DNA from: Pyrinomonadaceae bacterium
GTDB lineage: Bacteria > Acidobacteriota > Blastocatellia > Pyrinomonadales > Pyrinomonadaceae
Direction: 5' to 3'
DNA length: 59,317 nt
Assembly: GCA_025922875.1 (NCBI GenBank)
Contig: JAICGZ010000004.1
Coordinates: 1-59,317, forward strand
Positions 10,434 through 59,317 of the stretch are shown here, one piece after another. Under the pieces are notes generated by a model that made no database searches, had not been told where the DNA came from, and saw only the letters and a program-made list of their open reading frames with translations. Position 1 is the stretch's first letter; each line of letters starts with the position of its first letter. A program made the translations under genes and the position numbers.

Positions 10434-10520
10434 TGGTGCGGATGAGAGGACTTGAACCTCCACGATGTCACCATCACAGGCTTCTGAGACCTGCGCGTCT
10501 GCCAGTTCCGCCACATCCGC
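10434..10520 (-). tRNA. tRNA-Leu (CAG), CCA encoded
   Basis: Minus strand GCGGATGTGGCGGAACTGGCAGACGCGCAGGTCTCAGAAGCCTGT...GGTTCAAGTCCTCTCATCCGCACCA; acceptor stem GCGGATG/CATCCGC; anticodon loop CTCAGAA; long variable arm. Confidence 0.95.
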
Positions 10521-55162: not shown

Positions 55163-55351
55163 CTAGTCGACGGTCAACAAGCGCTTGCCATGAACGATAG
55201 CAGCAATCGTAACGACGTTTTCATCAACTCGATAGATGATTCGATAGCTATAAGCGAACCATTCACGAATACTTTCATCAAGAGAGATATATTGAGCAAT
55301 CGCTTCGAGGTCTTCAACAGCGCGTGAGGACCACTCTACTCGGTAAGCCAT
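55163..55351 (-). CDS. RelE/ParE-family toxin, internally shortened
   Basis: MAYRVEWSSRAVEDLEAIAQYIS...DESIREWFAYSYRIIYRVDENVVTIAAIVHGKRLL, 62 aa against roughly 95 aa typical. Confidence 0.8.
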   Translation of the reverse strand: MAYRVEWSSRAVEDLEAIAQYISLDESIREWFAYSYRIIYRVDENVVTIAAIVHGKRLLTVD

Positions 55352-55587
55352 TTGCCTGGCTGCCGCTCGACTTCTTCTTGAGGAATGGTTCCTTGAGCCT
55401 CAGCTGCTTCAAGCCCATTACGCACCTTCTCGATGACATACAGGTGGTATTGAATGTCCTCAAGCGAACAATCGTCAGGCAATCTATTTAACAAGGCGTG
55501 AACTTCTTGCTTAACCGTATTCAGATGCAGGAATTTACCATAAGATTGCGAAGCCCCGCACGTGAATGGGAGCATCGGTAATATCAC
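55336..55587 (-). CDS. antitoxin of the ParE-like module
   Basis: VKQEVHALLNRLPDDCSLEDIQYHLYVIEKVRNGLEAAEAQGTIPQEEVERQPGKWL; overlaps toxin start by 16 nt; own start uncertain. Confidence 0.8.
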   Translation of the reverse strand: MILPMLPFTCGASQSYGKFLHLNTVKQEVHALLNRLPDDCSLEDIQYHLYVIEKVRNGLEAAEAQGTIPQEEVERQPGKWLTE

Positions 55588-56939: not shown

Positions 56940-58445
56940 CTATTTCTCTTTCGCCGGCAGGATTATCGTGAACGTCGTACCGCCACCTTCCTTTGAAGCA
57001 ACACTGATCGTGCCGCCATGATCGTCGACTGCTTTTTTTACAATCGCGAGGCCCAGGCCAGTGCCAGTCTCCTTCGTCGAAAAATACGGTTCGAAAACTT
57101 TCGAGATATCCTGGGCCGCAATACCACATCCACTGTCGGTGATTTCAACCTTAACAAAGTCCGCGTCCGTGTTCGATAACTTGATCGAGATACTGCCTCC
57201 TGCGCCATCGATTGCTTCGACCGCGTTAATGACGAGATTAGTGAAAACTGATCGCAACGATTCGCGATCGGCAAGTACCGGCGGCAGCGTGCCGTCTTGA
57301 ATTATTTCGGTCTCAATGCCGCATTCCTCAGCCCTGGCTTCAACAAGACGGAGCGCATCTTCCGCTTCGATACGGATATCCACGTTTTGCAGATCGAGTT
57401 TTGACGGCCGCGAATACTTCAGGAAGTCGGTAATGTGACGGTTGATGCGGGCGACTTCGGTCTTTAATTGATCGGCAAGCCGGACGAACGTCGCTCTCTT
57501 GTTCGGATCGCTCGGAGCAAATGAAGATCGAAGGTGATCGAGCGTCAGGTTGATGTAGTTAAGCGGGTTACGAATCTCGTGTGCGATCGCCGCGGCGAGC
57601 CGTCCGACGACTGCGCCTTTCTCGGCTTGATGAAGCTGAGTCTCGAGTTCGCGAGCTCGTCCGAGTTTCGCAGTCATCTCGTTGAAGGCGGAAGCGAGCG
57701 TGCCCATCTCGTCGTGTCGATCGGACTGCACCTGAACATCGAAGTTGCCGCCGGCGACTTTACGCGCGGCGATTGAAAGTTCCTTGATCGGCCGAGTGAA
57801 ACGCCAAACGAAGAAGCCGGTGATCAGCGTAGTAACGAACAACACTGCGAGCGTATACAGCGCAGAACGCGACGCCTGTCTTTCCAAAACATTTGTCAGT
57901 ATGTTGGCGGAATCGAGCACGACGATGATGAAGCGCCGGCCGCGATCAGTCTGCACCGGAAAATAGAACGCGCCCGCTTGACCGAAATCAGTAGTCGCCG
58001 AGGGCGGAATCCAGGCAGGAAGTTGTTCGTGCTGGTTTGTAAACTGGACCGCACTTCTCAGCGGCAGGAGTTGAATGTCTTTGAACTGAACATAAGTGGT
58101 TTGATCTTCGCGTTCCCGTGGATTGAATTCGGGGATAACGCTATCAAGCACGTTACCGTCATCGTCCAGCACCAGAATGTTTTTGACTCGAACATTCTTT
58201 TGATTCAGTAATGGCTCCTGCAGGCCGCCGATTATCTGATCAAGGTACTGCTCGCTCTGGAGGCTTTCCAAACCCAGCGCGATGCCGGTCATGATCGCTT
58301 GTTCCTGTTCGATGATCATGCGCGCGTTGGCGCGAACCGTGCGCAGGTTGAAGTAGTACTGAATGCCGAGGGTCAGACCGAGCATCAACGCCAGCAACAG
58401 CAGGAGCCGGGCTCGAAAACTTTGTATCTGGGCGCGCAGTCTCAT
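56940..58445 (-). CDS. membrane histidine kinase (HAMP, HisKA, HATPase)
   Basis: AAIAHEIRNPLNYINLTLDHL H box, FTNLVINAVEAI N box, DSGCGI, GTGLGLAIVKK; 3-nt gap to the regulator. Confidence 0.97.
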   Translation of the reverse strand: MRLRAQIQSFRARLLLLLALMLGLTLGIQYYFNLRTVRANARMIIEQEQAIMTGIALGLESLQSEQYLDQIIGGLQEPLLNQKNVRVKNILVLDDDGNVLDSVIPEFNPREREDQTTYVQFKDIQLLPLRSAVQFTNQHEQLPAWIPPSATTDFGQAGAFYFPVQTDRGRRFIIVVLDSANILTNVLERQASRSALYTLAVLFVTTLITGFFVWRFTRPIKELSIAARKVAGGNFDVQVQSDRHDEMGTLASAFNEMTAKLGRARELETQLHQAEKGAVVGRLAAAIAHEIRNPLNYINLTLDHLRSSFAPSDPNKRATFVRLADQLKTEVARINRHITDFLKYSRPSKLDLQNVDIRIEAEDALRLVEARAEECGIETEIIQDGTLPPVLADRESLRSVFTNLVINAVEAIDGAGGSISIKLSNTDADFVKVEITDSGCGIAAQDISKVFEPYFSTKETGTGLGLAIVKKAVDDHGGTISVASKEGGGTTFTIILPAKEK

Positions 58446-58667
58446 CGAAAACTAAGAGGAGCGTATGAGCATCAGACGTTGCGTCTTGGAGAAACGAACG
58501 CTTTAGGCGTTTATCTTTATTTTACGGTCTGACAAACACAGGGCCCGCGCGAGTGGAACCCTCTAAATTGGAACAACCCGATGGCGGTAGCACATTGCGT
58601 TCCAGCGAAATATGTATAATCGATTACTTTTTCATTGCCCTCAAGTAGCTGTTGATGTTATATTTGC

Positions 58668-58863
58668 GGCGGTCTCAAATCAATGTCCCCAGAGACCGCC
58701 CGTTAGGGAAACTCTTCCCGCCCTCAATGTTGCAGCAGAAGGTTTGTAGAAGTACGAAAAGAGGCGTTTTTGAGAAAGCTCAGAACTGCAAAAGGTTTTT
58801 CATTTGAGGAAGGTTGCCAGACTCGGCAACTGAAGTTTCGACGTACTCACGAGTTGGTGAGTA
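58668..58863 (+). promoter_or_regulatory. candidate structured 5' leader RNA
   Basis: Four hairpins: 58668-58676/58692-58700, 58706-58710/58715-58719, 58813-58818/58825-58830, 58844-58850/58857-58863. Confidence 0.5.
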
Positions 58864-58891
58864 ATCCCTAAAAGAAAGGTACTGAGGCCTG

Positions 58892-59317
58892 ATGACTCTA
58901 GATTTCTATTCCCCTAAGTCCCGGCGGTTCGTTTTTGTGCTATTTATCTTAATTTGCCTGGCTTTTTCCGGGACAGTCTTCGGGAAGAAGAAACAATCCT
59001 CGGGCAGAAGTGCCCGCAGTCAGAAAAGTAAAAAATCCACTGCAAAAAATCGCTCGACGTCACGGCGAGGTCGCCAGGTTGCGAGGAGTTCGCGACGCGG
59101 CCGCGGCAGCCGTCTTTCGGCTCGTGAAGCTCGGCGACAAGAAGCTAATTCGGTACGCGCGCTACAGCGAAGACTCGGCCGGCCGCTCACTAAGCGCGAG
59201 TTGCGTCGCATGTCCGCTCGTAATCGTCGAGCCGTTCTCGCCGCGCGACGCAGGGCGGAAGCGGCACGCCGGGCCGCAATCGCACGACAGATCGCTTTGG
59301 ATAGGGCCATGCGCGCA
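58892..59317 (+). CDS. secreted basic protein, truncated by window end
   Basis: ATG at 58892; MTLDFYSPKSRRFVFVLFILICLAFSGTVFGKKKQSSGRSARSQKSKKSTAKNRSTSRRGRQVARSSRRGRG... open to the last base (142 codons). Confidence 0.8.
   Translation, partial: MTLDFYSPKSRRFVFVLFILICLAFSGTVFGKKKQSSGRSARSQKSKKSTAKNRSTSRRGRQVARSSRRGRGSRLSAREARRQEANSVRALQRRLGRPLTKRELRRMSARNRRAVLAARRRAEAARRAAIARQIALDRAMRA

Follow-up and report, generated by a model that had tools for sequence, protein, structure and literature searches.

Comparative genomics has brought to light structured autoregulatory or cis-regulatory mRNA leaders such as Actino-pnp and rne-II (PMC2864571). The leader described here is likewise a conserved, covarying 5′-leader RNA of one gene in one bacterial lineage, but differs from both in sequence, structure, phylum and the gene it precedes, which encodes a transpeptidase. 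Structured RNAs of Acidobacteriota also include Acido-1 and Acido-Lenti-1 (RF01686, RF01687), which are classed as non-coding RNAs, not leaders (PMC2864571), and match neither our window nor its relatives.

Two further systems resemble the leader in placement. 5′-terminal stem-loops stabilize bacterial mRNAs, ompA among them (papers cited in PMC7509114). The ompA 5′ UTR and the present leader share a stem-loop at or near the mRNA 5′ end, a long untranslated leader and an envelope protein gene; unlike in ompA, loop and single-stranded bases are conserved here. The putL element of HK022 comprises ~70 nt with two stem-loops just downstream of PL (PMC9378689). Our leader also places two stem-loops directly behind its promoter, a likeness in shape only, whereas putL is a phage element and the hairpin sequences of the leader differ widely between genera. 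The core of the c-di-GMP-I (GEMM) riboswitch also holds a GCAAA-CC stretch; the leader, however, yields no RF01051 match at E ≤ 1 and is built without the multi-helix tetraloop/receptor architecture.

The transpeptidase locus of Pyrinomonadaceae

Acidobacteriota are abundant, hard-to-culture soil bacteria whose cell-wall regulation is little studied, and it would be unusual for a penicillin-binding transpeptidase to be under conserved RNA control. The window, i.e. the whole stretch of 59,317 nt that was analysed, belongs to a 6.8-Mb draft genome of Pyrinomonadaceae (Acidobacteriota) and ends with contig C4; the named relatives used for comparison are Pyrinomonadaceae metagenome assemblies. The leader is flanked by a divergent histidine kinase gene on its 5′ side and by the transpeptidase gene on its 3′ side, with the following features:

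56940–58445, − strand: HAMP/HisKA/HATPase sensor histidine kinase, divergent, conserved neighbour (Pfam)
58635–58664, + strand: predicted sigma-70-type extended −10 promoter TTGCCC-N18-TATATT, its −10 hexamer preceded by TG (consensus scan and conservation)
58668–58700, + strand: H1 (P1), 5′-terminal stem-loop (37-sequence covariance-model alignment A5 and phylogeny-aware null)
58706–58719, + strand: H2 (P2), stem-loop GGGAA-ACTC-TTCCC (covariance-model alignment and swapped-arm test)
58813–58830, + strand: H3, hairpin GTTGCC-AGACTC-GGCAAC, not conserved (sequence; relatives compared)
58844–58863, + strand: H4, stem-loop TACTCAC-GAGTTG-GTGAGTA (swapped-arm test, 10 genus members)
58873–58880, + strand: probable Shine-Dalgarno sequence GAAAGGT, nearly invariant in the genus (genus alignment)
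58892–59317, + strand: putatively regulated gene, 5′ part only owing to the contig end (relatives' ORFs, Pfam)

The ORF at 58892 encodes 142 aa before the contig end, corresponding to a secreted, Lys/Arg-rich N-terminus. Its earlier description as a secreted basic protein is apt for this N-terminal part, but not for the whole protein, which in relatives is a penicillin-binding transpeptidase: comparison of full-length ORFs places the transpeptidase domain PF00905 behind the N-terminus (E = 7.8e-43 for the protein of relative G010, Pfam). The nearest solved structures are SpoVD, FtsI, and MrdA. The transpeptidase is encoded in 108 of 119 family genomes, and the gene order kinase–leader–transpeptidase is kept across the family: of the 71 locus sequences examined, 63 have the kinase next to the leader. 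Four paralogous transpeptidase genes (L063, L064, L068, L072), present as second copies, are devoid of the leader, and the kinase is found beside none of them. Beyond the sensor kinase follows a sigma-54 response regulator, an activator of the NtrC type (Pfam). Downstream of the response regulator gene, two small adjacent ORFs on the − strand (55163–55587) resemble a ParE/RelE-type toxin plus antitoxin when their translations are inspected by eye.

The promoter of the window reads TTGCCC-18-TGtTATATT, and the consensus scan predicts an RNA start at ~58668–58672, within a few nucleotides of H1. The earlier note had held that a start site downstream of the hairpins would speak against a leader; the predicted promoter lies instead just upstream of H1. 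The relatives found by BLASTN align to a common promoter, TTGCC-N17/18-TGTTATA[GT]T, followed by H1 and H2. Moreover, the promoter is kept in all leader-bearing relatives, distant genera included, and its spacing to the leader is fixed among relatives. Upstream of the −35 element, positions 58610–58634 (TATGTATAATCGATTACTTTTT) are also conserved in the genus alignment and may serve as promoter for the divergent kinase or as a shared regulator site.

Rfam 15 returns no match at E ≤ 1 for positions 57500–59317 of the window. Among the upstream regions of 20 diverse relatives, the same models give a single chance match, to a plant miRNA family; it falls outside the leader, on the minus strand. 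The initial impression that the region fits no known riboswitch consensus is thus borne out for the window region and the 20 relatives. As, in addition, a literature search returned no paper pairing Pyrinomonadaceae with a penicillin-binding protein, we call the leader a new RNA family among structured mRNA leaders, with newness defined against the Rfam 15 models; the Soil-1 and Solibacter-1 motifs were published without such models (PMC2864571). Across the whole window, only a tRNA gene at 10437–10520 on the − strand scores above the gathering threshold of an Rfam model.

Conservation of the leader hairpins

All four hairpins proposed from the single sequence are present. H1 forms nine perfect base pairs (58668–58676/58692–58700) around a 15-nt loop, AAATCAATGTCCCCA, which family-wide reads roughly ACGCAAACUCCCC. 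H2 has 5 bp (58706–58710/58715–58719); the conserved CUCUCC-type element makes up its 3′ arm, and CCUCA comes next. H3 comprises 6 bp (58813–58818/58825–58830) and H4 7 bp (58844–58850/58857–58863) just upstream of the ribosome-binding site. H1 is rarely matched by chance (4/500 shuffles), as is the combination of H1 and H4 (11/500), and H2 and H3 each alone are unremarkable against shuffles. Since the folding energy of 58640–58910 is ordinary overall (z = −1.1), the leader would escape a single-sequence energy screen.

BLASTN detects the leader at the same locus position in 11 further genomes, and the search was extended to many genera with a profile first and a covariance model next. At E ≤ 0.1, model R1 matches 43 of the 119 genomes of the family, and its strong matches are all one per genome and all upstream of the transpeptidase. 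Among 162 genomes of the class, model R2 matches 51 at E ≤ 0.01 and gives no convincing match beyond the family; among 396 genomes of the phylum, it matches 4 at E ≤ 1e-4, each of them a family member. As judged from these searches, the element occurs once per genome, accompanies a single gene and is confined to a single bacterial family. It occupies a fixed position on the sense strand before one orthologous gene, as a cis-regulatory leader should.

Covariation supports both 5′-terminal helices. In the covariance-model alignment A5 of 37 sequences, 98.4% of the H1 cells and 97.8% of the H2 cells are paired, absolute percentages that are biased towards the structure by the fitting of the alignment to it. 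Changes on both sides are seen in six of seven H1 pairs and three of four H2 pairs, and these 9 of 11 pairs, a level reached by 0/500 shuffles, also lie far above slid controls. Because shuffles ignore relatedness, we added a phylogeny-aware null, in which the substitutions of each column are re-placed at random on the tree of the same sequences; here, the summed G of H1 and H2 amounts to 91 compared to 17 ± 10 (0/400). Further, H2 arms are more complementary to their own partners than to swapped ones (0/300).

The remaining mismatches bear on whether the repeats act as RNA or as DNA. An inverted repeat downstream of the promoter could serve as an operator for a transcription factor, for example from the neighbouring kinase/response-regulator pair, and the fixed promoter spacing, the 15-nt gap between the repeats and the conserved divergent regulatory genes nearby would suit such a site. 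A DNA palindrome, however, would be expected to accept G·T as readily as A·C mismatches, whereas the mismatch cells of H1 and H2 comprise 36 G·U and 3 A·C, which argues for selection on the sense RNA. Moreover, different hairpins replace the repeat in distant genera, and an NtrC-type sigma-54 activator such as the neighbouring regulator would be expected to bind upstream of a sigma-54 promoter. A DNA operator is therefore very improbable and nearly excluded. As shown by comparison of the relatives, the RNA sense strand is under selection to keep its helices, at a fixed promoter spacing.

Conservation of H4 is confined to the genus. With the arms of 10 genus members aligned by hand, own arms give 68 paired cells compared to 60.6 ± 2.0 for swapped arms (1/2000), and compensatory changes keep the stem but not the loop. 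The loop reads GTCA, ATCTT, GCCT, GCCA, GCTT and others in relatives; consequently, loop–loop complementarity is not conserved. The nearest relative, L004, has no H3, and elsewhere the position of H3 varies. The earlier note had proposed mutually exclusive kissing of the H4 loop with H3 or H2. While GAGTTG is indeed complementary to GACTC and ACTC in the window, we rejected this mechanism, as H3 and the loops of H3 and H4 are not conserved. What stands of the original proposal is the structured 5′ leader itself, supported by promoter placement, the lack of an Rfam match and covariation across homologous leaders, which is found in many genera for H1 and H2 and within the genus for H4. On this comparative evidence, conservation as RNA helices holds for H1, H2 and H4 but not for H3, nor does conservation extend to the kissing loops.

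Between H2 and H3, UUGCAG (58730–58735) has a perfect complement in CUGCAA (58786–58791), and the nearest relatives retain both sequences; they may form a long-range helix closing a domain, although without informative covariation. A small upstream ORF in the window, ATGTCCCCAGAGACCGCCCGTTAG, was rejected as it is absent from the relatives' alignment.

Short leaders in distant genera

Genera at about 40–50% transpeptidase identity carry a shorter leader (~100–115 nt in many), in which the H1/H2 model finds no match. These leaders share the same promoter and place GCAA 15–17 nt after the −10 hexamer, a spacing rule that was formed on 20 leaders and fits 17 of 20 new distant ones. Directly behind GCAA stands a hairpin whose arms are very diverse yet complementary (own 14.9 compared to 12.3 ± 0.44 swapped, 0/300), usually followed by a CUCUCC/UUCCCC stretch. 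Of 41 genomes from one distant genus, 14 contain the exact promoter-plus-GCAA pattern, each at one site, and wherever coordinates were compared, this site was the transpeptidase upstream region. The pattern is absent upstream of transpeptidase homologues in other families of the class. Promoter–RNA spacing in the short-leader genera is, by sequence comparison, strikingly rigid. In short-leader genera (L165–L184, L078–L102), GCAA is also preceded by UUAG[C/U]UU, and the distance to the −10 element is almost constant at 16 nt.

Thus, a 5′ RNA element keeps its promoter spacing and a few loop bases, while the surrounding hairpins are rebuilt between genera.

Possible roles of the leader

The leader hairpins are kept across Pyrinomonadaceae before the same enzyme and probably form a control element for it. 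We see about an even chance that the leader is a family-specific 5′-terminal cis-regulatory RNA of the cell-wall transpeptidase mRNA, acting via a trans-acting factor or polymerase or via mRNA stability. The region would then represent a ~220-nt 5′ untranslated leader, the first 50 nt of which form a conserved RNA domain, H1 then H2, at the predicted transcription start, while H4, as the third conserved hairpin, stands directly before the ribosome-binding site. Such a leader would set the amount of transpeptidase made, likely through mRNA stability or translation. GCAA/CAA of the first loop and the CUCUCC strand would be the most likely contacts of the trans-acting factor, either an RNA-binding protein or RNA polymerase itself, and the 5′-terminal stem may also protect the mRNA end. 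As the element combines a clear consensus with a fixed position and a single target, its action should be testable by a simple reporter.

The conserved, covarying and aptamer-like structure in the 5′ leader also raises the question of a metabolite or ion riboswitch of a new class, in which H1/H2 would form the aptamer and alternative pairing of GGGA or CUCUCC would alter access to the ribosome site; given the lack of an Rfam match, any ligand would be new. Loop nucleotides are strongly conserved while the stems covary, and the GGGA strand can pair with UCCC of loop 1 or UCUCCC of H2 in most members. This alternative pairing, however, does not covary: a pseudoknot between loop 1 and the H2 5′ arm scores 11.25 with own and 11.26 with swapped partners and was rejected. 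In favour of a switch, some genera have a Shine-Dalgarno sequence with a perfect nearby complement (CCUCG/CGAGG, CUCUC/GAGAG). Sequestration by a local anti-Shine-Dalgarno strand is nevertheless only suggestive in a few genera and was rejected, since pairing is overall not above swapped controls (11.79 compared to 11.69). Likewise, Shine-Dalgarno accessibility shows no consistent difference from shuffles across genera, and no terminator or attenuator was found inside the leader, the only terminator-like site lying upstream of the promoter. Neither Shine-Dalgarno sequestration nor an attenuator is thus supported by the alignments, and an expression platform, be it a terminator or a sequestering switch with conserved alternative pairing, was not found. 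Consequently, no regulatory output can be read from the sequence.

Moreover, most riboswitch classes occur at several genes, whereas the leader is found at one gene, in one copy per genome and in one family. With a single target gene and no recognizable expression platform, a small-molecule switch becomes less likely, and action through a trans-acting factor or mRNA stability is more probable than a metabolite riboswitch, which we regard as unlikely. Distinctly unlikely, in our view, is a new riboswitch or RNA-sensing class in Pyrinomonadaceae that would read a cell-wall signal, such as a peptidoglycan precursor or second messenger, via the GCAA loop and the CUCUCC strand and thereby directly control the transpeptidase.

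H1 begins at most a few nucleotides from the predicted 5′ end, as a passive mRNA stabilizer, resembling the ompA 5′ stem-loop and devoid of regulation, would call for; such stem-loops stabilize bacterial mRNAs (ompA papers cited in PMC7509114), and the presence of a hairpin is kept here while its identity varies. A purely passive role (mRNA end protection) would leave much the same pattern with the exception of the conserved loop bases. It needs the stem only, yet the loop bases and CUCUCC rank with the best-conserved positions, and we consider passive stabilization improbable. By analogy with HK022 putL (PMC9378689), the ~55 nt with two stem-loops at the promoter might instead bind RNA polymerase as nascent RNA and suppress pausing or Rho-dependent termination over the long leader, in line with the fixed promoter spacing and the lack of a ligand platform. 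Hairpin sequences that differ widely between genera, the missing Rfam match and the absence of a visible downstream terminator to overcome make this analogy quite improbable.

Other long-leader genera (L046–L052, L053–L077) carry strong genus-specific hairpins of their own in place of H3 and H4, such as CGCGCGTCGCCCCTCGGCGCGC in g3, and some of these leaders contain a perfect complement of the Shine-Dalgarno sequence (CCUCG/CGAGG).
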